Below the pieces are notes generated by a model. The model saw only the letters and a program-made list of their open reading frames with translations. It had not been told where the DNA came from and did not search any database. The position numbers were made by a program, and so were the translations under genes. A stretch of DNA of 22,625 nt from a virus. The stretch covers positions 1-22,625 of IMG/VR virus record IMGVR_UViG_3300020377_000038. One strand, given 5' to 3'. Below are positions 11,401 through 22,625 of the stretch, piece after piece. Position 1 is the stretch's first letter. Each line of letters opens with the position of its first letter.

Positions 11401-13674
11401 ACCACCTACTATTCTTACATTAGGGATCTCCTCATAATCTAATCCCTTTGTATCCATTACTACTTCTTCAATAGTTCCCTCAACATGTGCTATTACTGAC
11501 GCACCTGATCCTACATGCCCGTCTTGGGTAACTGATATCCTTGGTGGGTTTATTACGTCATAATTTGATCCTGTGTTTAGAACCTCTACAGATTGTAGAG
11601 GACCGAAGTAAACAACGTCAGAGGATTTATATGAATACGCTTGGACACCATTAGCAAACAAACCAACACCACCCTGCACAGTTTTTGTCTTTGTCTCTGC
11701 AAACTCAGGGTCACCGAATCTTTTAAGCAACTTCTGTGCACCTAGTGTGCTGCCAGAGACAGCAAAGGGAGTCAGGAAGTGTGTAGAAAGACCTGACACG
11801 TCAGATGAACCGAACGCTGTAAGAAACTGTCCTCTACGCACGTTCTCAGCAGTGTATGCTAACTTTACAGTATTTGCATCTACCTTCTTAATATAATACG
11901 CTTCATTTTCATTTAAGTTAGAGAGAGTATTGATACCTGCAGATGTGTATACGACTAGATCGCCATCATGAAAATTATGTTCTGATACAGATATCTCTAC
12001 AGTATTAGCAGCGACAGCACTGTTATCAAATGAGCGTATTCTCTTTTGAGGATCTATGTCCCAGTGTGGAAAACTATTACATGCGACGTATGTTGCCTTT
12101 CCGTCTGTATATGTGTTTTGAATATCGGCAGTATGTCCGTCACTCGACAACTTTATTTTTCTACGTATGCGATATTTTCTGTTAAAGTCTAGCGTAGGTG
12201 AACTCACAGAGACACGTTTTGGTTCAGTGTCGAATGTAAATGTTATACTTCCATCAAATTCTGTGCCATCATCTGCGATTATTGATATCAAATCACCAAC
12301 ATACAACTGGTGGACTGCATCTAGATCAAAGTTATACGCATTCTGACCTATTAATGAGAACCCACTAACTGAGTATGTCGCAGTTGTATTGTATAACCAC
12401 GTGCTGTAGTTGAGATCTGATCTTGGTTCACCTAATGTTTTTACATTTATTACTGCATCTTCCTGTTGGTTTATTGCGTTACCCTCAAATGAACTAAGAA
12501 CACTTAAAACATTGAATGTTACAGGTAAAAGAGGATCACCATCCTCAAATGATGTCGCTACAATACCTGAGGTAACTGTTGACCCAATGCCACATGGAGA
12601 TGTAAGAGGTGATATGCCAGTAAACTGTGTATAGTTCTTACCAGTGTATGATATTGTTCTATCTTCATAATTAAATGTTCCTGTTGCACCAAACCCTATT
12701 GTAGAGTCAACATTTAGTATTGTTCCACCAACAGGTGTAGATTGTGTTATGAAAGTCTTTCCTACTTGTGTGAATTTACCTATGGTTGTTCCTTTTGATA
12801 TAGAAATTTTGTAAAACTCACTTCCTCTGAACACCACCTTCTCTACAGCATAAATTGAACCACTTGTTTGTAGAGGTGTTGTCTCCTGTATCAAGGATTG
12901 TCCAGTTATTTTGAGTGGATTACCAAAAACTAAATCACATATCAAAACATCATTTACGACATACTCAGCGTCAGATGGTTTGATAAGAAATTTTGATGGT
13001 TGAACCATCTCAACAGGTTCGCCATACAATGCACCAAACAATATCTTAAATGCTTCTTCTGTTCCCTTAGACTTATAGAAGTCTTTTGCTTGTCTTATAA
13101 AATTAGATTGATTGAGTCTATTATTAAGGTTTCTTTCTGCAAAACCTGGCAATATTTGCTTCTTTAGTTTTTTGAGGAATGACTTGAGAAATACATTAGA
13201 TAAATTGGTAACTCTGGAATCCACAGCATGAGTACCAACACCACTATTAGTAAAAGTAAGAAACTCTGGCGAATTTGTTTTACTATTATTTTCAATCCCA
13301 CTGAATCCACGTGCACAACCTGTAAATGAAGTTGATGTTATACCAGTATATGTAATTATCTCATCGTCTATCTTAAGCAAACCGTATCGATTCGGCCATC
13401 CTTTTGTAGAGTCAACAAAAATTTCTTTGACTGCACCATTTGTATATGATGTAAGTGAGGTAAATCCAGTTAAGGACTCGTTAGTCAATACATCTAAACT
13501 TTTATAAGACGCTAAATTGTCTGCGATGTCAATCGGTGCACCTTGAAACTCCTGTGAGATATAATACTGTTTGAGAAACTCTCCCAGTAAAGGATTTTCT
13601 GTTTCTATAACTTGTGGTATTTGATTCTGAATTATTTCGTGAATCTTTACCTTAGAAAAGGATGTCTGTATCAT
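5401..13674 (-). CDS. Giant YHYH-domain baseplate/tail structural protein (2757 aa), at the gp7 position
   Basis: At 2757 residues this gene covers over a third of the window. It lies where T4 carries gene 7 (between 6 and 8), but T4 gp7 is only 1032 residues and I cannot show homology. Residues 1-60 (LLGEFLKQYYISQEFQGAP), 85-125 (repeated turns ending FTGCARGFSGI) and 195-222 (AKDFYKSKGTEEAFKILFG) match the N-terminus of large cyanophage structural proteins. A YHYH-type domain spans about 1120-1300, with HSPIIGWAYDGHPIYGPYA at 1180-1198, DEHNGRFAATPEYPNGVYAYY at 1246-1266 and FPYIVG at 1289-1294. At least three copies of a module ending in YFVxKVDxNxFxLA occur near 555-635, 790-870 and 900-980. 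G-x-x-Y/P-rich beta modules recur throughout. The C-terminal third has DYYQNFSYSLKS and a final NTQLRFTPVANKAY segment. Its ATG overlaps the gp6 stop (TAATG), with GGTGGA upstream as a possible ribosome site. Confidence 0.88.
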   Translation of the reverse strand: MIQTSFSKVKIHEIIQNQIPQVIETENPLLGEFLKQYYISQEFQGAPIDIADNLASYKSLDVLTNESLTGFTSLTSYTNGAVKEIFVDSTKGWPNRYGLLKIDDEIITYTGITSTSFTGCARGFSGIENNSKTNSPEFLTFTNSGVGTHAVDSRVTNLSNVFLKSFLKKLKKQILPGFAERNLNNRLNQSNFIRQAKDFYKSKGTEEAFKILFGALYGEPVEMVQPSKFLIKPSDAEYVVNDVLICDLVFGNPLKITGQSLIQETTPLQTSGSIYAVEKVVFRGSEFYKISISKGTTIGKFTQVGKTFITQSTPVGGTILNVDSTIGFGATGTFNYEDRTISYTGKNYTQFTGISPLTSPCGIGSTVTSGIVATSFEDGDPLLPVTFNVLSVLSSFEGNAINQQEDAVINVKTLGEPRSDLNYSTWLYNTTATYSVSGFSLIGQNAYNFDLDAVHQLYVGDLISIIADDGTEFDGSITFTFDTEPKRVSVSSPTLDFNRKYRIRRKIKLSSDGHTADIQNTYTDGKATYVACNSFPHWDIDPQKRIRSFDNSAVAANTVEISVSEHNFHDGDLVVYTSAGINTLSNLNENEAYYIKKVDANTVKLAYTAENVRRGQFLTAFGSSDVSGLSTHFLTPFAVSGSTLGAQKLLKRFGDPEFAETKTKTVQGGVGLFANGVQAYSYKSSDVVYFGPLQSVEVLNTGSNYDVINPPRISVTQDGHVGSGASVIAHVEGTIEEVVMDTKGLDYEEIPNVRIVGGNNDTAILKAKMRIDHQVVEFDSTSAGSVVNTATDRFVFTSPHGLKNGEEIIYDANGSSTIGIGVTPGTLIDTAPYFVVKIDDFNIHISESRTKALAGVGTINLTINGGGLQRFKTTARRQKVDRVEVENSGLFKNREVRTTTVGINTFINLINIDNHGFSENEVIKYSSIGTVNSAIGGLTNNTEYFVRKVDNNSFRLASNKTDTTPISLTNNGLGVHVFQDPPISITIDGRQGITTSNATATPIIRGRINAVHVYDKGSDYGSTVINDNYKPVIETTIGQKAFLQPFVVNGRIDQIIIKDGGENFFSTPDIIISGDGVGCKAKANVSGGTITSIDIIEKGANYTQAQTTARAATPGQDAIFSSVIKKWTVNQVDRFARFGDVKDDDGFFENITNPDNGNPYVNYYAPRRLRDYLEDFGQDHSPIIGWAYDGHPIYGPYAVVDGAIKYLESGYTKLASQRVDGPSITKYPAGFFVEDFTYVDGVGDLDEHNGRFAATPEYPNGVYAYYTTVEATPINNPTSPFNGVRRPVFPYIVGDSYHSKPDQFNIDDNSQDTDPVSLNLVRNTLPYNIPEYEFVSNSNKNTDINSKIIKTRTGSVERVDVILVGKNYKVGDKLTFDNKDTGGFGAIGRVTNITGPSISTFTSSVVTHPNTTLVVKNNLVTGITTFPHSIPDRAVVEILGISSTTHSALATKAQINVPEVSSGIGMTMNTFGLTTSVILNEWLPDVLSDYKFRINDIVGIGSEQLKIVNFDVQNNRVEMIRKQNGTIAIAHTFGSKISRIEKEFTYNLSGVSDLITPLDESYFFNAESVVGTGSTFGVGIGTTVTVAGRGGNQLVAFHNNETKQKFIPTRSIYLPNHPFKTGDRVAYSPGAGTSLTYQTDAMKRVNVTFRRPLPPEVFVQKINNDLIGIVTTQSGIGSDLQRVMYSGNTGIGNTHSFTTQKGEITATVRIINVVATTNVDHTFRPNDEIDMTVVSAATSSVTAIYDPGTRFISIGSSVNPPLPLTDGTTLKVDTSDSSLENTKLKFFLDSNFNKPFVGSGVSETEVQESGIPGNPDSFTSIKFNNQVPDVLYYKFLPLQNTKDIEIDKNIKDFGKIFVNNSKFTGKHTITTTTSNTFTFNIFDLPEVVGYTSESQIDYTTTSTNITGGISRVLLEAGGQSYIDTPEVAVASTTGTSANLKAFGSDIGAIDKVDIVEFGYDYPSDATLRPQAAVPQVVFLKDNFAVGSVAITSTGRNYLSAPNFAIYNSKTNSVNLDAQFEAEMTGGSVTGVKIVSGGGNLSTGDVELYAIDNSNGVGIVSAIYSAGTVTLRLQTPITGFTTAVPIPFKVGDKVFVENVGVATGNGFNSSDFEFQSFTLTGVTTNFGNVNGATIQYKVSKDLGTHDKGKFGTVTRDEDLAKFKVNLVESTFLNGEPVTSSGGGVAEVVKGVGKTRNVLRINNLVGFNTGDVIRGKFSTAGGTIESTQEYTGHFKLDSSIEKPFGFEKDTGKLSDFYQRIQDNDYYQNFSYSLKSTVGIASWSEPVDSLAHISGFKKHSDLLINSVPSSAPVVAGISSAAGNVVVIDAQASIHDNHQFDLVTENTDEFNSVSDEISFTSGRFGDAIICNTNRVLEIDDLSPQFYSDPNLIRSVELDTFDMLTGGPSSDGINAVKYYAQVVLDTALGISVNATQYTEFVVFHDGVDAYLNTYNVLSDGKELGEFVTETSGPLASVLFVPNNSSFAYDITFHKEILTHGVGVGSTSFGFQEYKGKTVTLNTFGSAVVQEVDAIDATMYKSGSILVAARSPGFEKEIDEFTWLADGNNKVLFTNYGKMDADTDVGTFQVNMLSNTLKLRHTSPVGVAVTVTALSRSVGVAQTHANTGIVGSYIIGDTELDGTFTTIAPISGTPNPQIISNKSYDNYTTCKYHIEIHNTTDDEYSVFNIAANSFGGNANFSKYNNLFTADSEKRNIDNTGIHILGNNTQLRFTPVANKAYTIRVAELKIDKPDAVASDATFNY

Positions 13675-15815
13675 TAATATCCACCTGATGATCCACTTGA
13701 ACTAGGAGTTGATGTTGTTGATGATGATGACGAAGTCATGCCAGATGACATGGTTGATGATGTATCTATAGGAGCAAGAGGAGTGTTAGATATCATCTTG
13801 CTATTGTTACCGTGTACAGCACCAGTCATTTTCTGACCATTTGCCATGGTATGAAATGCACCAAAGTAAGGTTGCCCATCAACATACCCTACAAGAGTTG
13901 CAGTCGTTGCGTTCGTGGTGCTTGGAACAATTGCTCCTCTGACCTTTGATCCATTAGAGTAACTTGATTCCACATCGTACCTTGTTCCTGATGTATTTGC
14001 ACCAGTAGAAATGGAGTCTTGCCTCATAAAGAAGTTGCTTTCGGCAACATCAAACTGTAAATACAATTCCTTTCTTGCTAGAACATCATTGGAGTCAGGT
14101 ATTGCTTGTATTTGTATAATATTATCTGGTAGTAGTGTGGATGTTATGTTAACTGTATCAATCATTATCTCGCCCTTTTCATAATCAACAGATCCAAAGG
14201 TATTTGACACCACAGTTACCTCTGTGTCAGATGATAACTGGAATAGGAAGAGATTACCTTTTGTTGTGCCTGTGATGACAGTGTCTGACATATACACAGT
14301 CCCTGATATACCAGAGACATTGAATCCTGTTGATTTTATATTGTAACTTGCGTCTTTTGTATGGAAGGTATTGTCAAAACATAACTCGTATTGTGCAAAT
14401 TGATTTATCTTTGCCTCTAAGTTTCTTCTTATCCTTACTTTTGTTATATTACTTGTGATAGATGAGTCAACATTGTCGATTAAAGACAATACATTACTAT
14501 ACTTGAATCTGCCACCAAATTTATTTAATTCTGTGCCAGTTGCAAACTCAGTTAGTGCTGATGTTACGTTTGATTTTAAATTTTCTGGATCTCCTACAAA
14601 ATTAGTATTGTAGTAGACATGACTATCAATCTCAACATATAGAAATTTTAAATCCATTAGTTCTGGCACAATACCTGCAACAGAGTATTTCTTCAATGAT
14701 GTTAATATTTGTTTTTTAGAAAATTGTGAGAGAAACGAACCGTTTTTAGGTTTTGCTGCTATGAACACACGACCAAATTTAGGTGGATCTAATTCTTCAC
14801 CACCAAAAGCACTTATAGATTCTATGTTTGGAAATACGGAAGGTATGATTGCTTCGTAATCACTAGCAGTGACTGCTCTGTGTTGAGATGAGTAAAGTCT
14901 AGGGGCATAGTATCTTACGCTCCTTACATCCTCTATAGAGTCACCATTTTCTGATGGTGATATGGGAGTGAGGAAAGGTTCGTAATCAGAGAGTAAAGCA
15001 CCATCTTGATTTAACAATGTTCCAGTAAAACTTAACCTTGCTACTCCGTTGCCACCTTTACCTTGTGTCCTTATGTAAGAAACATCAACGATATTACCAT
15101 TCGACAACTTCTTACCGAAGATACCATCACCAAACAATATCTCGTACTTCTCGTCTGTTGTCTCTTGTATAAGATATATTTGAGAAGTTGATGTGATACC
15201 AAGGATATTATCAACTAACTTATATTCATCTGTGGTTGTGCTAGATGAATTTTCTCTTACTTTGACGACAATCGTAGAGGTATCTATACCGTCGTTTGGT
15301 AAGACGAACCTTTGATTAGGTTGGGAGTCATCTATGAAGAAATTTTCTGTTAGATATTGACCTTGAAATACTTTAATAACTCCATTTGACTCACCGTTGA
15401 CAACAGTTCCCGTAACCTCTTCTGGTATAGAAAAAATATAATTGATGTTGTTAGCGTTACCATTACCAATCAAACCTGGTTGAAACTTGATGATCTCGGT
15501 TGTGCTTGGTAGATCAAGTATATTATAACTTACCTCTGCTGTTGCTGCTCTCCTTGAACGTGGGACATAACCTATATTTCTAGCAAGTGATACAACGTTT
15601 TCACGTAATGTGGCACTGTCAATAAAAGTCTCATTGACAACCATATTAGTGTTGTACGCTGTGATATAAGAATTATATGCAAGTAAGTTTACAATGACAG
15701 ACAGATTAGACCCATCAAAGTCCATATCTGTAAAATTAGAATTCTCCCTCAGATAATCCTTGATGGTTTCTTTTATATCCTCAAAGTTGAGGTTAGTGAA
15801 TTGTTGTAGTGCCAT
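13674..15815 (-). CDS. gp6: gp6-like baseplate wedge protein (baseplate J-like)
   Basis: A 713-residue protein close in length to T4 gp6 (660 residues), the wedge subunit that forms the inner baseplate ring. The N-terminus reads FEDIKETIKDYL and SNLSVIVNLLAYNSYITAYNTNMVVNE, then LRENVVSLARNIGYVPRSRRAA (about residues 11-91). This is the usual start of gp6 and baseplate J-like proteins in cyanophages. Later segments such as YAPRLYSSQHRAVTASDYEAIIPSVFPNIESI are also typical of baseplate J family members. Near the C-terminus, PYFGAFHTMANGQKMTGAVH (about 646-665) is a His/Met/Gly motif found in phage tail proteins. The last roughly 29 residues are almost all Ser, Thr and Gly, a flexible tail. The ATG overlaps the gp25 stop by one base (TAATG), with AGG a few bases before it, so translation is likely coupled to gp25. 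Confidence 0.92.
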   Translation of the reverse strand: MALQQFTNLNFEDIKETIKDYLRENSNFTDMDFDGSNLSVIVNLLAYNSYITAYNTNMVVNETFIDSATLRENVVSLARNIGYVPRSRRAATAEVSYNILDLPSTTEIIKFQPGLIGNGNANNINYIFSIPEEVTGTVVNGESNGVIKVFQGQYLTENFFIDDSQPNQRFVLPNDGIDTSTIVVKVRENSSSTTTDEYKLVDNILGITSTSQIYLIQETTDEKYEILFGDGIFGKKLSNGNIVDVSYIRTQGKGGNGVARLSFTGTLLNQDGALLSDYEPFLTPISPSENGDSIEDVRSVRYYAPRLYSSQHRAVTASDYEAIIPSVFPNIESISAFGGEELDPPKFGRVFIAAKPKNGSFLSQFSKKQILTSLKKYSVAGIVPELMDLKFLYVEIDSHVYYNTNFVGDPENLKSNVTSALTEFATGTELNKFGGRFKYSNVLSLIDNVDSSITSNITKVRIRRNLEAKINQFAQYELCFDNTFHTKDASYNIKSTGFNVSGISGTVYMSDTVITGTTKGNLFLFQLSSDTEVTVVSNTFGSVDYEKGEIMIDTVNITSTLLPDNIIQIQAIPDSNDVLARKELYLQFDVAESNFFMRQDSISTGANTSGTRYDVESSYSNGSKVRGAIVPSTTNATTATLVGYVDGQPYFGAFHTMANGQKMTGAVHGNNSKMISNTPLAPIDTSSTMSSGMTSSSSSTTSTPSSSGSSGGY

Positions 15816-16219
15816 TATAACCTGTTAGGTTCTAGGATAAAATTGATATTTTGTGTTGGTGCTGACATACCAACGATTTTATACTCTATTTTTACATCAA
15901 GTGCATTATCATCTGGAGTTACATCCACACCAATACCTGTCAATTGCACTCTTGGTTCGTTGTTTGTGATGGTGGTCTCAATCTCACTTCTAACATCGTC
16001 TACAATATCGACTGTTGACAACTCAAAAAGTGATTTTTCGATATTAGTGCCAATCAAACGGTCAAAAGGCACCTCTCCTAAGATGATTCTCACTAAATTT
16101 TGCACCGACTTCTTGATCGCATCCTCATTTTTAAGCAAAACGATATCATTCGTCACAGGATGACGTTTAAATGACAGTGAAATGTCATTAAATCCTTTTG
16201 AAAATGACTGTGAGGGCAC
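15815..16219 (-). CDS. gp25: gp25-like baseplate wedge protein (probable GTG start)
   Basis: Homologue of T4 gp25, the small lysozyme-fold wedge protein that joins the sheath to the baseplate. The body reads GFNDISLSFKRHPVTNDIVLLKNEDAIKKSVQNLVR, a conserved PFDRLIGTNIEKSLFE segment and NNEPRVQLTGIGVDV, in gp25 order. The longest frame begins at a TTG at 16261, but that codon lies in the T-tract of a terminator and upstream of a GATAAATA late-promoter box. A transcript from that promoter could not contain it. The in-frame GTG at 16219 lies about 14 bases after the predicted transcript start and yields 134 residues, close to the 132 of T4 gp25. No good Shine-Dalgarno precedes either codon, so the start is inferred. 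The gene is first in the structural operon and overlaps gp6 by one base. Confidence 0.88.
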   Translation of the reverse strand: MPSQSFSKGFNDISLSFKRHPVTNDIVLLKNEDAIKKSVQNLVRIILGEVPFDRLIGTNIEKSLFELSTVDIVDDVRSEIETTITNNEPRVQLTGIGVDVTPDDNALDVKIEYKIVGMSAPTQNINFILEPNRL

Positions 16220-16238
16220 TAAATTATATGATCTTGTA

Positions 16239-16246
16239 TATTTATC
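16239..16246 (-). promoter_or_regulatory. Late-promoter-like box (GATAAATA) for the gp25-gp6 operon
   Basis: The minus strand reads GATAAATA, matching the NATAAATA late-promoter motif of T4-like cyanophages. It lies just downstream of an intrinsic terminator and just upstream of gp25, the first gene of the baseplate operon, which is where a late promoter would be expected. Transcription would begin near 16233. The box lies inside the longest gp25 frame, which argues for a later translation start. Confidence 0.6.
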
Positions 16247-16259
16247 ACTATTTAGAGTC

Positions 16260-16286
16260 AAAAAAAGACCCTCATTGCTGAGGGTC
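16260..16286 (-). terminator. Intrinsic terminator ending the accessory gene cluster
   Basis: On the minus strand a perfect 8-bp stem (GACCCTCA / TGAGGGTC, 16267-16274 with 16279-16286) closes a GCAA tetraloop of the stable GNRA class. Seven consecutive T residues follow (16260-16266). This is a textbook Rho-independent terminator. The hairpin overlaps the last codons and the TGA stop of the 63-residue gene, and it separates the accessory genes from the baseplate operon. Confidence 0.9.
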
Positions 16287-16463
16287 GTCTTCGTGTCCTA
16301 AGTATTTGACTTCTATTTCGTCTGGATGAGGAAATCCTGAGTGAAAAAACTCGTCTGCTAAATCTTGTGTGATGTCTTGCATTTCTTCCTCAGTTATAGA
16401 AGAATGTATCTTCTCTCCTGATATGTAAATATCATATAATTCCATGTTACGTGTATATTGCAT
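16272..16463 (-). CDS. Small acidic conserved-type phage protein, function unknown (63 aa)
   Basis: A short acidic protein with the pattern MELYDIYISGEKIHSSITEEE, then DLADEFFHSGFPHPDEIEVKYL. Small proteins with a similar (L/S)xEFxxxGxPHPDEI core occur in marine T4-like phages as hypotheticals, so it is probably real; I know no function. Two starts are possible: ATG at 16463, nine bases after the glycosyltransferase stop, or ATG at 16445, which would begin MELYDIY and better fits the family style. Neither has a clear Shine-Dalgarno. The first ATG sits in the loop of a 7-bp inverted repeat. The stop codon and last codons form the stem of the downstream terminator. It should be co-transcribed with the glycosyltransferase from the sigma70-type promoter at 17251-17279. 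Confidence 0.65.
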   Translation of the reverse strand: MQYTRNMELYDIYISGEKIHSSITEEEMQDITQDLADEFFHSGFPHPDEIEVKYLGHEDDPQQ

Positions 16464-16472: not shown

Positions 16473-17228
16473 CTATATAATTCTTGTTTTCTCATGACCA
16501 ACTCTGCATTTAGGATCGATCCATATTTCAAAACCAGCTTTAATTGCATCTAGACAGAAAGATACATCCTCACCACACATGTCTTGCACCTCACCAGAGT
16601 CAAATACTTGCATCTGTGGAGCAAACCAAGGATATGTCATCTCCTTATGTTCAAAAACACCTTTCTTAATAAGCAACCAACCAAACCCAGAATAGTCAAC
16701 TGTGAAAGGTTTACGACGTTTGACAATACCATCAACCATTTCATGATTCATGACACCACCATTTTCTTTAAAGTCATCCTCTTCTAACCAGTGTGCACAT
16801 GATGTTGTTTGACCATCCTCAGTAGCATACCATCCACCTGCGATGTCTTTGTCCATTGCTACAACTCTATAAAAGTTTTCTAAGTTGAATACGATGTCAC
16901 TGTCTATCCATAATTGATAGTCATAGTTTAGTTTGCCATCCCAAGGTAATTGATCAGGACCTCGTAACACGTTCGCACCAAGACATTTGCATCGTGCAAA
17001 GTTCACCATTGATGAGTAGTCTTGTGATATTTGTATACTCGCTCCATTCTGTACTAATTCAAAACAGAGAGATACAAAGTTTTTGAGGAAGATATATGAT
17101 ACATTTCTGCCAGGCAGACAGAAAACTATGCTCTTGCCTTTGATTAGTTCTTTTGCTGCCTCTATATCAAAGTCATCAGACTTGTCAGTCTTTGGTGGTT
17201 TGGACACCACCTTAAATCCTTTTGCCAT
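16473..17228 (-). CDS. GT-A type glycosyltransferase-like protein
   Basis: A 251-residue protein with the layout of a GT-A glycosyltransferase, which moves a sugar from a nucleotide donor to an acceptor. A Rossmann-like start, KSIVFCLPGRNVSYIFLKNFVSL (32-54), leads to a DxD motif in YDYQLWIDSDIVF (D109 and D111). This motif normally binds the metal and the donor diphosphate. After a segment of aromatic residues, CGEDVSFCLDAIKAGFEIWIDPKCRVGH (218-245) gives the ED acidic pair, the DP strand and the late histidine typical of such enzymes. There is no signal peptide or membrane helix, so it should act in the cytoplasm. Donor and acceptor cannot be read from the sequence. The gene begins about 15 bases after a predicted sigma70 transcript start, leaving a very short leader, and is followed by a 63-residue gene and a terminator. 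Confidence 0.82.
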   Translation of the reverse strand: MAKGFKVVSKPPKTDKSDDFDIEAAKELIKGKSIVFCLPGRNVSYIFLKNFVSLCFELVQNGASIQISQDYSSMVNFARCKCLGANVLRGPDQLPWDGKLNYDYQLWIDSDIVFNLENFYRVVAMDKDIAGGWYATEDGQTTSCAHWLEEDDFKENGGVMNHEMVDGIVKRRKPFTVDYSGFGWLLIKKGVFEHKEMTYPWFAPQMQVFDSGEVQDMCGEDVSFCLDAIKAGFEIWIDPKCRVGHEKTRII

Positions 17229-17250
17229 ACTATTAGGTACACTCTCAAGT

Positions 17251-17279
17251 ATTATAACAAATTATATAGCATCTATCAA
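17251..17279 (-). promoter_or_regulatory. Near-consensus sigma70 promoter with extended -10, upstream of the glycosyltransferase
   Basis: The minus strand shows a -35 box TTGATA (17274-17279), a spacer of exactly 17 bases, and a perfect -10 box TATAAT (17251-17256). A TGT immediately before the -10 gives an extended -10 (TGTTATAAT). The -35 and part of the spacer lie in the last codons of the upstream SGNH-like gene. The start point would be near 17244 and the gene starts at 17228. Such a site would be read by the unmodified host RNA polymerase, independent of the phage late system. Confidence 0.72.
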
Positions 17280-17951
17280 CTGGATGATTCTATCTGCGAT
17301 TTTCTTGTGTCCAAGTGCAGACGGATGACCACCATGAACACCACTAGCATAGTGTTTTGGATATTGTTTCATAAGTCCTAGAACATCCATGTTAAGCATG
17401 GTGCGTGGTATGTCACGGCATAATTTTCTCCAATGACCAAACCCTTTCTCAAATATACGATCAGGAAATCTTAGTGCATTGTCATAGTGATCTGCTATCA
17501 ATGCAACATACTTCTGACCCTTATGCTTACAGTATGAGTCCCATAGAAATAGATTTTGCCACAGATTTTCTACACCGACTTGATCAGTGTACACATCTCT
17601 GTAATAAACACTCTCTCGCTCACTACGTAATTTTTGTGGAGTGCAAGGAATAATTTTACCATTATCGTCAAACAACTCAAGTCTCTGGTGCACAGTGAAT
17701 TGGATAATGACTATGTCAGCGTTCATCTTTTCCAACCACTCTATAGTATTTCTAACAATATAATCGTTACTTACACCACACTCCCCAAGATTTATAGAGG
17801 GTCTTTTGTAATGATCACTTACAATTTTACTGTACCTCTCTCGTAGTCTATTCTGCAACTCATCACCATATGTCCAACTACAACCTGTAAATAATAGGGA
17901 GGCATTTTTCAGAGATTTCTCTCTCCAAGCATTATATTCTTCTCTGTCCAA
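17262..17951 (-). CDS. SGNH/GDSL hydrolase-like protein, copy 1
   Basis: A 229-residue protein of the SGNH/GDSL type, a fold used by esterases and acyl- or acetyl-transfer enzymes. Block I is LLFTGCSWTYGDEL (19-32), with Ser25 the likely nucleophile. Block III is GVSND (59-63), with Asn62. Block V is HGGHPSALGHKKIAD (206-220), with His209 the likely catalytic histidine. The aspartate usually three residues before that histidine is replaced by His206. It is a clear paralogue of the product of 19941-20534: both share GCSxTxGxEL, QFTV, GxENxWxNxFLxDxYCKxxGQKY and HPSxxGHKxIA. The start is a TTG at 17951, overlapping the sulfotransferase gene by 20 bases. No ATG or GTG is available before block I, so a non-ATG start seems required. 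The target is unknown; removal or transfer of acyl groups on a glycan is a guess from the neighbours. Confidence 0.78.
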   Translation of the reverse strand: MDREEYNAWREKSLKNASLLFTGCSWTYGDELQNRLRERYSKIVSDHYKRPSINLGECGVSNDYIVRNTIEWLEKMNADIVIIQFTVHQRLELFDDNGKIIPCTPQKLRSERESVYYRDVYTDQVGVENLWQNLFLWDSYCKHKGQKYVALIADHYDNALRFPDRIFEKGFGHWRKLCRDIPRTMLNMDVLGLMKQYPKHYASGVHGGHPSALGHKKIADRIIQLIDAI

Positions 17952-18600
17952 AACAATCCATCCCGAATCTATCGTAACAATAGTTATACGTGTTATTATA
18001 ATCTACATCGACATACCTACGCAATCCCTTCTTAGATGAATTATACACTTTGTTAGGGTTCAGAGTGAGATGAGGTATATCTAAAAATTTTATTAGTCTG
18101 TCTAGATCTTTTGTAAAAAGTGTCTCGTAGAATCCATAAAAAACATTGTCAAATACCTTATCAAGATTTTTTATGGTGATCTCATACCTAGATCTAATAT
18201 GATAAGAGTCTAATTTATAACCGTCAAAATTACCAGTGTGTTGCATTGCTGACCACAGTCTTTCTACAGGATCACGCATCAAAAACACCACCTTTACAGT
18301 ATAACCCCTCTCCTTCAAATAACCATTTATGTGTGAATAATTATCAGCAGACAACTTACAGTAATTTGGCGTTATGTCACCTGTTACTAGGTTAGGTATA
18401 CTCTCAAAGTAATCAAGATACTCATTTGGGTTTGCAAATGGTGGTTGTCTTGAGAACTCATCTTTGAGATCAAACCACCAATCCCAAAATTTGTACTCCT
18501 TACCAAAACCCATATCAACATACGGTGACTTACACAATTGACTATGCAACCATGTGGTTCCACCTCTCTGACATCCAACACAAAGTATGAATTGTTTTAT
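17932..18600 (-). CDS. PAPS-dependent sulfotransferase-like protein; expected ATG is ATA
   Basis: Sulfotransferases move a sulfo group from PAPS to a sugar or other acceptor. The N-terminus reads KQFILCVGCQRGGTTWLHSQL, where GCQRGGTTW (9-17) is the 5'-phosphosulfate loop. GKEYKFWDWW (33-42) matches the KE-aromatic acceptor-site region and GDITPNY (74-80) the family GE-SP-Y motif. VVFLMRDPVERLWSAMQH (104-121) is the 3'-phosphate site, with Arg109 and Ser117. All key motifs are intact over 222 residues. No ATG, GTG or TTG lies between the upstream in-frame stop and the 5' loop; the first available TTG (at 18549) would delete the loop. The codon where ATG is expected is ATA at 18600, overlapping the previous gene's TAA (ATAA). 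An ancestral ATGA overlap changed by one base explains this. AAAAGGA lies two bases upstream. Translation may start at AUA, or the base may be an assembly or sequencing error. Confidence 0.8.
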   Translation of the reverse strand: MKQFILCVGCQRGGTTWLHSQLCKSPYVDMGFGKEYKFWDWWFDLKDEFSRQPPFANPNEYLDYFESIPNLVTGDITPNYCKLSADNYSHINGYLKERGYTVKVVFLMRDPVERLWSAMQHTGNFDGYKLDSYHIRSRYEITIKNLDKVFDNVFYGFYETLFTKDLDRLIKFLDIPHLTLNPNKVYNSSKKGLRRYVDVDYNNTYNYCYDRFGMDCFGQRRI

Positions 18601-18974
18601 GTTCCTTTTATAGAATCCTTAGTGTATATATTCTTGCTTAAATAACCACCACGACCACCTACCCATCCAGTTGGTTTATTTTTATTTGGTGCACCTGTAC
18701 GAATAACGTTTGTTTCAGTGGTATGCCATGTGGTGCCTGCACCGACAACATCTATTGGACATACTTGCATCATTTTTTCCATGCCTTTCTGCACAGCAAT
18801 ATCATAATTTTGAGAGTAACCATAATACGATAGTCTTGAGAGAGATCCACCAACCCCAACAGTTCCCTCCGTTGCAACGTGCCACTCCCATTGACTAGGT
18901 GTTGTTGCAGAAGTCCAACGAACAACTAGATAAGTGTCCTCAGATACGTTTCTTGCATCAATTTTTTCTGCCAT
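18597..18974 (-). CDS. Small tandem paralogue B, function unknown (125 aa)
   Basis: I do not recognise this family. The protein has 125 residues with no signal peptide or membrane segment. It aligns along its length with the 115-residue product just upstream. Shared features are WxWxVxTxGTVxxGG (29-43 here), GYS (52-54), A...G..KM, GxGxTxHT (78-85), VIRxG (90-94) and a glycine-rich end GxxGGRG (103-109). The regular spacing of aromatic and glycine residues suggests a small beta-rich domain rather than an enzyme. It starts with ATG one base after the paralogue's stop, preceded by a good ribosome site (AAAGGG, 18983-18988, eight bases away). Its TAA stop overlaps the probable ATA start of the sulfotransferase. 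A small virion or decoration protein is possible but unproven. Confidence 0.75.
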   Translation of the reverse strand: MAEKIDARNVSEDTYLVVRWTSATTPSQWEWHVATEGTVGVGGSLSRLSYYGYSQNYDIAVQKGMEKMMQVCPIDVVGAGTTWHTTETNVIRTGAPNKNKPTGWVGGRGGYLSKNIYTKDSIKGT

Positions 18975-18975
18975 G

Positions 18976-19323
18976 TTAGGAACCCTTTGAGAATCTTTCT
19001 ACTGTAATTGAACTACCCCTACCACCTGTATATCCAAGTGGACTGAGTGTTGATATACCTAAACGTATGACACCTGCGTCATTCGTATGGAATGTGACAC
19101 CTGTGCCTATTACACCATCTCCTATCACGGTTCTCATTTTATACGCACCAGTCTTAATTGCTGTTATCATGCTCTCGGAGTATCCATTAGTCTCAACCCT
19201 AGGTTCAGTTCCACCAATAGAGACCGTGCCTGATGTCACCACTGACCACTTCCAGAGACCTCTGGAGGAATCAAACGCAACTCTTAGTTTAGTATCAGTT
19301 TGAAAATTTTGTTTGATCGCCAT
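18976..19323 (-). CDS. Small tandem paralogue A, function unknown (115 aa)
   Basis: Unrecognised 115-residue protein, paralogous to the next gene downstream. It carries WKWSVVTSGTVSIGG (24-38), NGYSES (46-51), GTGVTFHT (73-80), VIRLG (85-89) and GYTGGRGSS (97-105). The residues that agree between the two copies are mostly Trp, Gly, Thr and Arg, which suggests a conserved fold with divergent surfaces. The ATG at 19323 lies 22 bases after the stop of the oxygenase-like gene, the largest gap in this part of the cluster. I see no convincing Shine-Dalgarno or promoter there. The gene touches its paralogue with a one-base spacer. No enzymatic motif is evident. Confidence 0.75.
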   Translation of the reverse strand: MAIKQNFQTDTKLRVAFDSSRGLWKWSVVTSGTVSIGGTEPRVETNGYSESMITAIKTGAYKMRTVIGDGVIGTGVTFHTNDAGVIRLGISTLSPLGYTGGRGSSITVERFSKGS

Positions 19324-19345
19324 ATGTTATAAGAGATCTATCGTA

Positions 19346-19954
19346 TTATTTAGTTCTTATGATATTACCAACTATGACAAACCTTTCGTCGAGGTTTATT
19401 CTCTCATCGACACCATGGTAACAATAACTAGGAAATACCATAAAATCACCTTGCCTTTGACATGGTGGATATATTTTCTCATCACCTTTTCTAAAGAAGA
19501 AGCAATCCTGATCGGGCACTTTTATAAAGTGCACCCATGAGAGCATATCACCCATTTCAGTATAATGGTCGTGATCTACCATAAACCCTTTGACATCCTT
19601 CTTTGATAATTGTCCCCAGATAGATGAGAAAGAATATATCCTATGCTTACCGTATAAACGAAACAACTTTAATATCTCTACAAGTTTGGGTGTGTATATC
19701 CTTGACATTTCCATGTCAACATACCCCGTCTCATTTTTATAGTACCCCGTCCAATGCAAACCAGAACACACAGATTTAGATGTAGATGATTTGTATAAAC
19801 CATGCTTACCTATCAATTGTTCTTTACTAACATTTTTACCACTTATGGGTTCATGCTCTTGGTAGTGTAACTCCTTACGATAGGTATCATCCTTATATTT
19901 GTCAAGGAAATAATCCTCCTTACCATGCACCCAATTCTCACTATGAACATACAT
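19346..19954 (-). CDS. 2-oxoglutarate/Fe(II) oxygenase-like protein
   Basis: The C-terminal half has the pattern of the phage-common 2-oxoglutarate/Fe(II)-dependent oxygenases, which usually hydroxylate a substrate. In order it shows MVDHDHYTEMGDMLSWVHFIKVP, GDFMVFPSYCYHGVDE and ERFVIVGNI. The histidines of DHDHY (about 128 and 130 from the chosen start) and of YCYHGV (about 180) are the likely iron ligands, and Arg191 the likely 2-oxoglutarate contact. The usual HxD/E spacing is not exact, so activity is less certain than the fold. I chose the ATG at 19954 (MYVHSENW), giving 202 residues and a 14-base overlap with the upstream SGNH-like gene; a longer frame needs a TTG at 19975. GAGG lies about 12 bases before the ATG. 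The substrate is unknown. Confidence 0.7.
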   Translation of the reverse strand: MYVHSENWVHGKEDYFLDKYKDDTYRKELHYQEHEPISGKNVSKEQLIGKHGLYKSSTSKSVCSGLHWTGYYKNETGYVDMEMSRIYTPKLVEILKLFRLYGKHRIYSFSSIWGQLSKKDVKGFMVDHDHYTEMGDMLSWVHFIKVPDQDCFFFRKGDEKIYPPCQRQGDFMVFPSYCYHGVDERINLDERFVIVGNIIRTK

Positions 19955-20534
19955 GTTTAATAATAACCTCAGCAATCCTCTTGTGACCCTCTGGTGAGGG
20001 ATGTTTGTGTTCTAGAAGGAGACTCTCGTCCTTGATGATGTCCCTATGCAAACGTAAAGGGGCAGGTGCCTTCCAATAAGAATTTATATCTAAATCATCT
20101 TTCCAGTGATCTGCAAACAAAGCAGTGTATTTTTGACCCACCTTCTTACAATATGTGTCAAACAAAAATATGTTCTTCCACATATTCTCTATGCCTATGT
20201 GTCTGTTGTAGACAGATTTATACCATTGATTGCGAGCATGGTTGTTATGATACTTCTCATCTCTTTGTGATGGTGTCCAATGACGTTCTCGCCCTCTGTC
20301 GTTATACCAGTTACGTCTAGGAGGCACAGTAAATTGAATAAAGACGTGATCTATGTCAAGTCTAGGAATCATCTTTATCGTATTGATTGTAATCTTATCA
20401 TTGCTCAAACCACACTGTGCATAGTTTACTTCCTCTATGCCAAAGTGATTGCAAACTATATGACTATACCTGTCACTCAGATTATCAAGTTCACCACCCC
20501 ATGTGTTACTACATCCATTAAAGAACAATAACAT
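19941..20534 (-). CDS. SGNH/GDSL hydrolase-like protein, copy 2
   Basis: Paralogue of the SGNH-like protein at 17262-17951. Block I is LLFFNGCSNTWGGEL, with the likely nucleophile Ser9. Block III is GLSND (42-46). The C-terminal block is EHKHPSPEGHKRIAE, with the likely catalytic His178; the usual aspartate three residues earlier is a glutamate. The middle shares QFTVPPRR, IGIENMWKNIFLFDTYCKKVGQKY and ADHW with copy 1. A frame opens at a TTG (20567) with further ATGs at 20561 and 20555, but only ATG 20537/20534 is preceded by a ribosome site: GAGAAG at 20539-20544, four bases before 20534. That start also places block I right at the N-terminus and leaves a 17-base overlap with the carbamoyltransferase gene. 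It overlaps the oxygenase-like gene downstream by 14 bases. Substrate unknown. Confidence 0.78.
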   Translation of the reverse strand: MLLFFNGCSNTWGGELDNLSDRYSHIVCNHFGIEEVNYAQCGLSNDKITINTIKMIPRLDIDHVFIQFTVPPRRNWYNDRGRERHWTPSQRDEKYHNNHARNQWYKSVYNRHIGIENMWKNIFLFDTYCKKVGQKYTALFADHWKDDLDINSYWKAPAPLRLHRDIIKDESLLLEHKHPSPEGHKRIAEVIIKHVCS

Positions 20535-21897
20535 CATACTTCTCACTAAATTCATTTGCATGATCAAGGGTATTTACCATAGGTTCTCCACGCACATTCA
20601 AAGATGTATTGAGTAAGACAGGACAACCTGTACGTTTATACCAACACTCCAGTATGGGTCTCAGAATGCTTACAGAGTCCTCTGGCACTGTTTGTACCCT
20701 AGCAGACCCATCGACGTGTATTACGGCAGGGATTGCCCCCTTCTGTTTGCACTGATAAACAAATGACATGTACCTTGAACTTGATGGCATATCAAAGTAG
20801 TCTTGACAATGCTCCTCCAATACAGCTGGTGCAAATGGTCTGAATTTTTGTCTCTTTTTGATTTCATTTACTAAATCCTTGTTCTCTGGTTTTCTTGGAT
20901 CTGCTAATAGACTTCTATTGCCAAGTGCACGAGGTCCGTATTCAGCACGTCCGTTTGCTATACCTACCATACCACGCTCAAGTAATATGTCCACTGCCCT
21001 TCTAGGGTCACACAACCTTTGTATATTGTATCCTAGGTAGGGTGTGAAGTTTACCTTGCCCCCATATGATAGTAATGCTGCTCCTAGTGCTGCACCTGCA
21101 TCGCCAGGATTTGGCATAATCCATAAGTTATAAGTCTCTCTTAGTTTGGTGTTCACCACACAATTTAAGGCAACACCTCCACCATAACAAATATTATTAC
21201 TGTAACGTGACGCTCTCTCAAATATTGTAAGTAGTTCTAACTCAAGTATTCTCTCTGCACTTTTTGCGACATCAAATTTATTGTAATCACCTAGTCTTAT
21301 ACCTCTATGACTGTTCTTTCTCAACGCTCTCTCTACAACATTTAAGAGCACAGGTTGACCAAACGCTGCCATACCCATGAATATGTACTCTTCATCTAGT
21401 GGACGTAGACCTGCCCACTTTGTAAGTGCAGAGTACCACAAACCAATAGACTTAGGATACCACTGCGACCACACCTTCTTATACACTGCCTTACCCTCTA
21501 CCATCTTCGCAGTCCATATTGATGAGCAATCCCATTCACCTATGCTATCGATAACTACACACGCTGCCTCATCAAAGATAGATGTCTGGAACGCTGCTGC
21601 AGCATGTGACTTATGATGACCATGATAGTTTGTAGGTTGCATTGCTAGGACTCTGTCTTTCTTCCAATGACTTTGACCTGCAACCAACTGTCTTGTTTTC
21701 TTTAACCACGGTCTCTCATAGAAAGCAACAACATCATCATTTGTAAAACACTTAGCGACATTGACTGCTGCCTCGTCCAATACCTTATCATGTTTTATTC
21801 TAGAGTATCTCTCTGAGTGTGTAGCAAAACAAATCTTGCCACCCTCACACACTACAGCGATTGCTGCATCATGAAACCCTTCGCTAAATCCAATCAT
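20518..21897 (-). CDS. NodU/TobZ-type O-carbamoyltransferase
   Basis: Members transfer a carbamoyl group from carbamoyl phosphate, via carbamoyl-adenylate, to a hydroxyl on a sugar or natural product. The N-terminal domain shows GFSEGFHDAAIAVV (3-16), HSERYSR, HGHHKSHAAAAF (92-103, metal-binding histidines) and VIDSIGEWD (115-123). The middle shows YGGGVALNCVVN (238-249) and NPGDAGAALGAAL (263-275). The C-terminal domain has GRAEYGPRALGNRSLLADPR (316-335), FRPFAPAVLEE (352-362), HVDGSARVQTV (394-404) and CPVLLNTSLNVRGEPMV (425-441). All usual motifs are intact. At 459 residues it is shorter than many bacterial members (over 500) and ends soon after the last motif. The ATG has GAGG eight bases upstream (21906-21909). 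It overlaps its upstream neighbour by 14 bases and the next gene by 17. Such genes also occur in other marine phages. Confidence 0.93.
   Translation of the reverse strand: MIGFSEGFHDAAIAVVCEGGKICFATHSERYSRIKHDKVLDEAAVNVAKCFTNDDVVAFYERPWLKKTRQLVAGQSHWKKDRVLAMQPTNYHGHHKSHAAAAFQTSIFDEAACVVIDSIGEWDCSSIWTAKMVEGKAVYKKVWSQWYPKSIGLWYSALTKWAGLRPLDEEYIFMGMAAFGQPVLLNVVERALRKNSHRGIRLGDYNKFDVAKSAERILELELLTIFERASRYSNNICYGGGVALNCVVNTKLRETYNLWIMPNPGDAGAALGAALLSYGGKVNFTPYLGYNIQRLCDPRRAVDILLERGMVGIANGRAEYGPRALGNRSLLADPRKPENKDLVNEIKKRQKFRPFAPAVLEEHCQDYFDMPSSSRYMSFVYQCKQKGAIPAVIHVDGSARVQTVPEDSVSILRPILECWYKRTGCPVLLNTSLNVRGEPMVNTLDHANEFSEKYDVIVL
20539..20544 (-). promoter_or_regulatory. Ribosome binding site (GAGAAG) deciding the start of SGNH-like copy 2
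   Basis: GAGAAG on the minus strand lies one base before ATG 20537 and four bases before ATG 20534, inside the end of the carbamoyltransferase gene. None of the upstream candidate starts (TTG 20567, ATG 20561, ATG 20555) has a comparable site. It therefore favours the short form of the protein, preferably from 20534. Confidence 0.55.
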
Positions 21898-22625
21898 ACT
21901 TTCTACCTCGCCTCCTCATATCTCTCATATTTCTTTTTGAGATATAATCTTTTGCTATCTGCTCATACTGATCTCTCTCAGGGTAGTCGCCAGGATGAGT
22001 TTGATCTCTTGGCAACTCATTCTTGTCAAAACCAAAAGTCTCTGTGTAATCATCTCTATCCATATTAAAGTATACAGGTTCTAATCCTTTTTTAATAAAA
22101 TACACCTCTATCCTCCTTAGATCTCTGACTACCTTATCAAGGTAATCCTCTACTTTTCCATTATGACTCCATCTTTTTATTTTACTGGCAAAACAATCAA
22201 CCAAGTTTTCTTTGTATGGTATTACATTCTTTCTTAATTTGTATTTACTTAAAACATAGGTCTCATTCTTACTCTCATCGTCCATACTATGCGAAGGAGT
22301 GCCTATCATGTTTCTTCCCATAATAGTAAAGGGTTCAAATATAATGTCAACATCCATCAGTTCATCTCTTATGTTGTTTCTCCAATACTCCATCATAGCA
22401 CTTTTTGATGAAGTCCACCTCATGTATGGTTCCAATACAGTTCCCCAATAATTTTTAGATGGTGAGACAGGAAAATGTTTTTGTTTTTCACAGAACCACT
22501 TGTCAGTAAAAAATACCTCAACAAGGTCTTTGTCCTTCATCAAGACATCAGGAGGTCTCCTTTCATTAAGACCTCCAAAATATTTTACCATTAGATCACC
22601 ACCAACCTCACTCGTGTTGGAGTGC
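21884..22625 (-). CDS. Unknown protein with SGNH-like C-terminal motif, 5' end probably beyond the window
   Basis: An ATG at 22591 would give 235 residues, but the frame stays open through it to the right edge, adding HSNTSEVGGDL before the methionine. The true start may therefore lie outside the window. The C-terminus reads RDQTHPGDYPERDQYEQIAKDYI. Asp196-Gln-Thr-His199 (numbered from that ATG) fits the DxxH end block of SGNH-type hydrolases, and the following helix (YEQIAKDYI) is also typical. No block I is visible, which fits a missing N-terminus. The middle has no motif I recognise. The final residues are very basic (KRNMRDMRRRGRK), partly because they overlap the ribosome site and start of the carbamoyltransferase gene (14-base overlap). 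If correct, this is a third SGNH-like gene in the cluster, but similarity to the other two is not evident outside the end block. Confidence 0.6.
   Translation of the reverse strand, partial: HSNTSEVGGDLMVKYFGGLNERRPPDVLMKDKDLVEVFFTDKWFCEKQKHFPVSPSKNYWGTVLEPYMRWTSSKSAMMEYWRNNIRDELMDVDIIFEPFTIMGRNMIGTPSHSMDDESKNETYVLSKYKLRKNVIPYKENLVDCFASKIKRWSHNGKVEDYLDKVVRDLRRIEVYFIKKGLEPVYFNMDRDDYTETFGFDKNELPRDQTHPGDYPERDQYEQIAKDYISKRNMRDMRRRGRKYDWI

Follow-up and report, generated by a model that had tools for sequence, protein, structure and literature searches.

Known phage systems for modifying the O-antigen or lipopolysaccharide (LPS) of the host consist of one or a few membrane enzymes, and NodH is the sulfotransferase that acts on the Nod factors of rhizobia. 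Nod factors are also tailored by carbamoyltransferases (NodU/NolO) and acyl enzymes (PMC5080398). Single carbamoyltransferases and sulfotransferases are already known from phages (PMC3037559, PMC10580990); in cyanophage isolates, Nol-like carbamoyltransferases (phrog_1601; T4-GC 303/721/1350) are sporadic accessory genes (PMC3037559), and the biological function of phage sulfotransferases has been described as unclear (PMC10580990). Here, we describe positions 16473-22625 of the virus record IMGVR_UViG_3300020377_000038, whose 22,625 nt we refer to as the window. In this region, an O-carbamoyltransferase (CarbT), SGNH-fold proteins, and a sulfotransferase are encoded on the minus strand upstream of the baseplate operon of a T4-like cyanophage (gp25, gp6, gp7, and further wedge proteins). 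The region is the edge, next to a probable glycosyltransferase (GT), of a larger hypervariable island and not one fixed pathway, and the island marks one strongly supported, uncultured clade of cyanophages. In the literature searched, we found no description of a phage island that unites carbamoyltransferase, sulfotransferase, and SGNH genes, nor of such a combination at a fixed place with paralog arrays and restriction to a clade.

The Island in Related Genomes

Two scans of IMG/VR were used to collect related loci. One employed an alignment of the GT, with no selection for the island, and returned 80 loci; the other employed an SGNH profile and is biased towards SGNH carriers. Both scans taken together yielded 54 contigs with CarbT upstream of the GT, and the order that recurs in dozens of contigs is [sulfotransferases]n-ORF1-CarbT-SGNH-GT-63aa-gp25, where ORF1 is an open reading frame (ORF) cut by the end of the window and 63aa is a conserved protein of 63 amino acids (aa). 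Among the 28 loci with the highest GT identity (L008-L035), CarbT is present in all 25 that extend more than about 1 kb upstream, and the remaining three contigs end short. The other 52 of the 80 loci have no CarbT upstream of the GT, L080 having only a 37% fragment downstream of it. In a tree of the GT, 26 rows with the island (the window included) and two contigs ending 950 bp or less upstream of the GT fall on one branch with 100/99 support, and the island is absent from all 52 other rows. The hosts are cyanobacteria, since psbA is encoded by two relatives, a 122-kb contig and a 66-kb contig of the sorted particle AG-345-D19, which comes from an extracellular-particle sort (PMC6122165).

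SGNH genes were found in 52 of the 54 contigs, members of a sulfotransferase array family (ST3) in 42, ORF1 in 25, a 2-oxoglutarate (2OG)-Fe(II) oxygenase in eight, and small paralogs in five; in 44 of them CarbT is directly followed by SGNH. Where 6 kb or more of upstream sequence is available (31 contigs), there is exactly one CarbT per contig, with up to 7 SGNH genes and up to 8 ST3 genes, and both of the latter families are present in 29. The family of the window's own sulfotransferase was seen in this window only (1/54). The sequence-only reading had placed carbamoyltransferase, sulfotransferase, glycosyltransferase, oxygenase, and SGNH-like proteins in one unit resembling a small tailoring pathway. 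CarbT, SGNH, and sulfotransferases are indeed linked upstream of gp25, but the oxygenase, the small paralogs, and the window sulfotransferase are sporadic and the GT is independent. Since relatives vary the gene set so freely, the locus should be viewed as a hypervariable decoration island rather than a single fixed pathway.

The ST3 profile matches PDB entry 3rnl, a sulfotransferase (2.2e-6), and heparan-sulfate 3-O-sulfotransferase 5 (3-OST5; 1.2e-3), and an RDP-type 3' motif is present in 94 of 141 sequences; only 4 of 30 members have a Pfam match and none of the 30 matches any PHROG. In relatives this array lies beyond ORF1, and it is therefore to be expected past the end of the window in the present genome. 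Paralogs within one contig are about 30% identical and 18 ST3 and 20 SGNH groups (defined at 50% identity) span several contigs, which argues for old, diverged copies rather than recent duplications. In comparisons to close relatives, the island genes have rates of nonsynonymous change (dN) well below those of synonymous change (dS), and dN/dS is about 0.04-0.3 for those with an estimable dS; they are under purifying selection, although the proteins encoded by most of them evolve several-fold faster than the GT or gp25.

Other features of these contigs should be mentioned. Genes for HNH endonucleases lie among the SGNH genes in L019, L020, L025-L027, L029, L032, and L034, and could drive exchange of the island between phages. 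An HpcH/HpaI-type aldolase gene is found in eight island contigs (e.g., L010:914-1774 and L140:1588-2448), and L033:2446-5815 is rearranged, with the GT inverted relative to CarbT, gp25, and gp6. At a second locus (L161:1-3053, L159:1-2062, L158, and L164), which adjoins a PhoH-like gene (judged by eye), a different carbamoyltransferase is encoded as separate C- and N-terminal proteins and SGNH follows directly, strengthening the case for a functional link between carbamoyltransferase and SGNH.

In isolate records, the SGNH and ST3 families were not found at the sensitivity used; the sorted particle AG-345-D19 alone has them. A short contig of it (L005:1-7955; MH319727.1) carries SGNH, carbamoyltransferase, sulfotransferase, and radical SAM genes, as well as methyltransferase-like and amidinotransferase-like genes recognized by eye.

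Annotation of the Window

The genes in the window are genuine and most of the names given to them from sequence alone were correct (Table 1). From upstream to downstream, they are ORF1, CarbT, SGNH1, oxygenase, sm1, sm2, sulfotransferase, SGNH2, GT, and the 63-aa gene, followed by a terminator and gp25. The tight packing and overlaps reported earlier are borne out by intergenic gaps of -44 to +22 nt across 17262-22624. Family or fold matches agree with the names carbamoyltransferase, sulfotransferase, and oxygenase-like protein and with two SGNH proteins, and the glycosyltransferase is probable; the possible third SGNH protein, ORF1, was not confirmed and is left unassigned, its weak model having no clear SGNH match and its sequence no family match.

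Table 1. Features annotated at the island edge and in its flanks (window positions)
Feature	Position	Strand	Remarks
ORF1, C-terminal 246 aa of a protein of ~340 aa, cut by window end; conserved neighbor of CarbT	21884..22624	-	Columns 66% identical on average (21 relatives)
CarbT, O-carbamoyltransferase (NodU/CmcH/TobZ family); constant single-copy island anchor	20518..21897	-	PF16861, PF02543, phrog_1601
SGNH1, SGNH-fold protein (GCSxTxG, HPSxxGH)	19941..20561	-	Paralog of SGNH2
2OG-Fe(II) oxygenase-like protein	19346..19954	-	phrog_81, 5e-13
sm1, small protein	18976..19323	-	Paralog cluster with sm2
sm2, small protein, paralog of sm1	18597..18974	-	Shared sequence cluster
PAPS-dependent sulfotransferase-like protein	17932..18600	-	PF13469 2e-6, PF00685 4.5e-5, both above Pfam cut-offs
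SGNH2, SGNH-fold protein (TTG start)	17262..17951	-	AF2 pLDDT 94; TesA/GDSL matches
Sigma70-like promoter of GT unit (TTGATA-17-TATAAT, TG before -10)	17251..17279	-	Score 11/12
GT, probable glycosyltransferase, core Kyanoviridae gene (T4-GC 102/phrog_1574), outside island	16473..17228	-	105 phage records, identity up to 89%
63-aa conserved protein, second gene of GT unit	16272..16463	-	phrog_3252
Intrinsic terminator of GT unit (8-bp stem, T run)	16267..16286	-	Conserved in nearly all island contigs
Late-promoter-like CTAAATA...ATAAATA before gp25	16232..16255	-	Motif
gp25, baseplate wedge (flank)	15815..16261	-	phrog_261, 8e-44
gp6, baseplate wedge (flank)	13674..15815	-	phrog_219, 9e-190
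PAPS, 3'-phosphoadenosine 5'-phosphosulfate; AF2, AlphaFold2; pLDDT, predicted local distance difference test.

CarbT has Pfam matches far above the cut-offs (PF16861 4e-53, 179.8 bits, cut-off 27; PF02543 6e-31, 108.7 bits, cut-off 24). Its closest PDB relatives are decarbamoylnovobiocin carbamoyltransferase (5e-48), GdmN, and TobZ, enzymes that act on sugar or polyketide hydroxyls. The motifs HHKSH, DSIGEW, and NPGDAG are common to the window and AG-345-D19 and align to the solved decarbamoylnovobiocin carbamoyltransferase; their key residues (HxxxH, Asp, and GD) presumably have the metal-binding and active-site roles of those in TobZ. No Pfam or PHROG match above chance and no convincing PDB relative by profile was obtained for ORF1, and the best fold matches of its model (pLDDT 69), that is, a GTPase, Stf0 sulfotransferase, and adenylate kinases, all have E > 0.1 and hint weakly at a P-loop/Stf0-like fold.

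SGNH1 and SGNH2 are paralogous, and both carry GxSxTxG and HPxxxGH motifs. The AF2 model of SGNH2, built from a 67-sequence alignment, matches TesA/GDSL esterases (Foldseek E 2e-6; VIA Z 15.6, root-mean-square deviation 2.8, 163 residues), and carbohydrate esterases are among its matches. In the family as sampled from the fetched loci (n=168), the GxSxTxG-type motif is present in 162 and the HP-GH motif in 153, and, in the sequences, IQxT stands where the block III Asn of the oxyanion hole is expected. A scan of bacterial and archaeal genomes with the SGNH profile found no relative, and hence no cellular donor at that sensitivity; single-protein scans of IMG/VR with SGNH2 or sm1 returned no matches.

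The frame of the window sulfotransferase carries the PAPS-binding motifs QRGGTTW and RDPVERLWS, but the PAPS loop lies upstream of every in-frame ATG, GTG, or TTG and would be lost from any such start. The gene therefore probably begins near 18600, where ATA overlaps the stop codon of sm2 (ATAA), which suggests either translational coupling with a non-canonical start codon or a frameshift out of sm2. Homologs of the oxygenase lie at the equivalent place in L008, L012, L092, and L094-L096. The gene of the small paralogs is duplicated in the window, L092, and L095 and single in L008, L012, L094, and L096. These proteins are without database relatives, and the sole hit obtained with defence-system models, a weak one between sm1 and a type I specificity subunit (1.7e-3), was taken as chance. 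A CTAAATA (19353-19347) that precedes sm1 is only a hint of a late promoter, since it overlaps the stop codon of the oxygenase gene at its conserved RTK-stop end.

The Glycosyltransferase Unit

The product of 16473-17228 is probably a glycosyltransferase, judging by PHROG glycosyltransferase matches of 3e-4 and 5e-3, a DSD motif, and the name "glycosyltransferase" in some isolate annotations; its profile found no convincing PDB relative. The 105 records with relatives, from a phage collection, are nearly all cyanophages, and in isolates without the island the GT adjoins gp25 and has small unrelated genes upstream. Scores of at least 10/12 were obtained for the GT promoter in 85 of the 89 contigs with the island and in 49 of the 50 cyanophage contigs without it, compared with 3% of mononucleotide shuffles.

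Because it has its own conserved promoter, a terminator after the 63-aa gene, and a presence without the island in 52 tree rows, the pair of GT and 63-aa gene is a separate unit, though read-through from upstream is possible. Counting the GT as a member of the cluster was thus a mistake, this being a core cyanophage gene. The claim that the cluster ends in its own terminator, and so behaves as a unit, holds in part: the terminator is real and conserved, but it follows the GT and 63-aa gene, and the cluster itself runs on past the window end, where ORF1 is cut.

Substrate and Alternative Explanations

The reading that we favor, with moderate confidence, is a variable glycan-decoration island that probably acts on precursors of host surface glycans, with superinfection exclusion as the presumed benefit. 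A glycan is favored as the substrate class on indirect grounds, since relatives of ST3 include heparan-sulfate-type enzymes, those of CarbT act on sugar or polyketide hydroxyls, and those of the SGNH fold include carbohydrate esterases. Sugar enzymes are also neighbors of the sulfotransferases, namely NAD-dependent sugar epimerase genes at 0.7-2.2 kb in 3 of 20 records and a CMP-sugar-type cytidylyltransferase gene that overlaps a sulfotransferase gene in AG-345-D19. Furthermore, sulfation is common in the exopolysaccharides of cyanobacteria, and cyanophages are known to use LPS as a receptor (PMC4390846).

Once infection is under way, the enzymes, working in the cytosol, would draw on carbamoyl phosphate and PAPS of the host; no adenosine 5'-phosphosulfate (APS) kinase was found in 17 records, so the host would be the source of PAPS. 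Carbamoyl and sulfate groups would be placed on sugar hydroxyls, the SGNH proteins would trim or transfer acyl groups (removal being as plausible as addition), and further positions would be modified by the oxygenase and, among relatives, by radical-SAM enzymes. The likeliest acceptor would be a surface polysaccharide of the host (LPS or exopolysaccharide) at the stage of its cytosolic precursor, with a virion glycan second, and all products could act on one polymer, as the sequence-only reading proposed. This would change the pattern of the host surface so that it no longer binds rival or sibling virions, and variation in host glycans from strain to strain would be tracked by the large and changeable set of paralogs.

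Several observations weigh against this reading. Genes for export, a polymerase, or a lipid carrier were not seen in the island, which leaves its enzymes reliant on unspecified acceptors, and the epimerase and cytidylyltransferase neighbors are present in a minority of records only. In the SGNH family (n=168), the position three residues ahead of the catalytic His, where a classical triad has Asp, is taken by P, Y, N, K, Q, E, and others, and Asp is not among its 12 commonest residues; a Ser-His dyad is possible and the activity is predicted only. Finally, no test discriminates a host glycan from a virion glycan. In the latter case, the core GT would attach a sugar to a protein of the baseplate or tail within the cytosol, and the island enzymes would sulfate, carbamoylate, and acylate that sugar, altering adsorption. 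We consider this unlikely, though it is the most credible of the alternatives: the island has a fixed position between the GT and the baseplate operon, its enzymes have no obvious export route, and a sulfotransferase and the cytidylyltransferase of AG-345-D19 lie near tail-fibre-like genes, but isolates that have no island gene also retain the GT, which is served by a promoter and terminator of its own, no glycoprotein candidate was found, and sm1 and sm2, the sole small non-enzymes, occur in few relatives.

Less probable again is an accessory hot spot, that is, a tolerated gap before gp25 where functionally unrelated genes gather and share no substrate. Although relatives differ strongly in gene content, HNH endonucleases are interspersed in the gap, and the same gap in isolates holds unrelated small genes, group-transfer and sugar enzymes make up most of what recurs, CarbT is present once in 31 of 31 long contigs with SGNH so often directly after it, and the two are linked again at the second locus. 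A small diffusible metabolite, made or tailored by the phage, is very unlikely. Carbamoyl- and sulfotransferases with oxygenases are typical of natural-product tailoring, and AG-345-D19 adds the methyltransferase-like and amidinotransferase-like genes, but no scaffold-building gene (polyketide synthase, nonribosomal peptide synthetase, terpene synthase, or precursor of a ribosomally synthesized and post-translationally modified peptide) was recognized in the window or the listed island ORFs, and sugar-nucleotide enzymes are present instead. The least likely explanation of all is DNA hypermodification against restriction by CarbT and partners: phage carbamoyltransferases of its Pfam family modify 5-hydroxymethylcytosine (5hmC), and an oxygenase and the GT are close by, but such enzymes co-occur with a hydroxymethylase (PMC8670742). 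None of 17 records, all of them fragments, has a gene of the thymidylate-synthase family to which that partner would belong, and CarbT is only 24% identical to the 5hmC enzyme. To our knowledge, sulfotransferase arrays have no role in DNA modification.

If the host-glycan reading is true, viruses edit the sulfation and carbamoylation of surface glycans on major photosynthetic cells of the ocean, affecting who infects whom. With up to eight sulfotransferases beside CarbT and SGNH at one mappable locus, the question of what phage sulfotransferases do becomes directly testable. The sulfotransferases of the array and the SGNH proteins also add two phage protein families that are scarcely present in reference libraries or isolate genomes.

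Comparison with Known Systems

The 5hmC carbamoyltransferase (MetaGPA) belongs to the same Pfam families as CarbT and is likewise a phage O-carbamoyltransferase, with the differences given above. The Nol-like carbamoyltransferases of cyanophage isolates are of the same family too, but they are less than 40% identical to CarbT, lie elsewhere in their genomes, and in many cases match over part of the length only; no SGNH or sulfotransferase array was found in these isolates. With phage LPS and O-antigen modification (superinfection exclusion), the island shares a gene set that would alter a host receptor glycan, but it consists of one carbamoyltransferase together with SGNH proteins and numerous soluble sulfotransferases.

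The rhizobial Nod-factor system follows the same chemical logic as the island, in that sugar hydroxyls are carbamoylated, sulfated, and edited in their acyl groups by enzyme sets that vary between strains. The island differs in lacking NodC/B/A, in its large array of sulfotransferase paralogs, and in its place in a phage genome. As no glycan backbone synthase was found in the window or the island ORFs, the island works like a Nod-factor tailoring set but is not a member of that pathway. We tentatively propose, as a possibility somewhat short of an even chance, a combinatorial system in which one CarbT and old sulfotransferase and SGNH paralog arrays would write strain-specific patterns of sulfation, carbamoylation, and acylation on a host-surface or virion glycan, with a logic comparable to that of Nod-factor or glycosaminoglycan coding.

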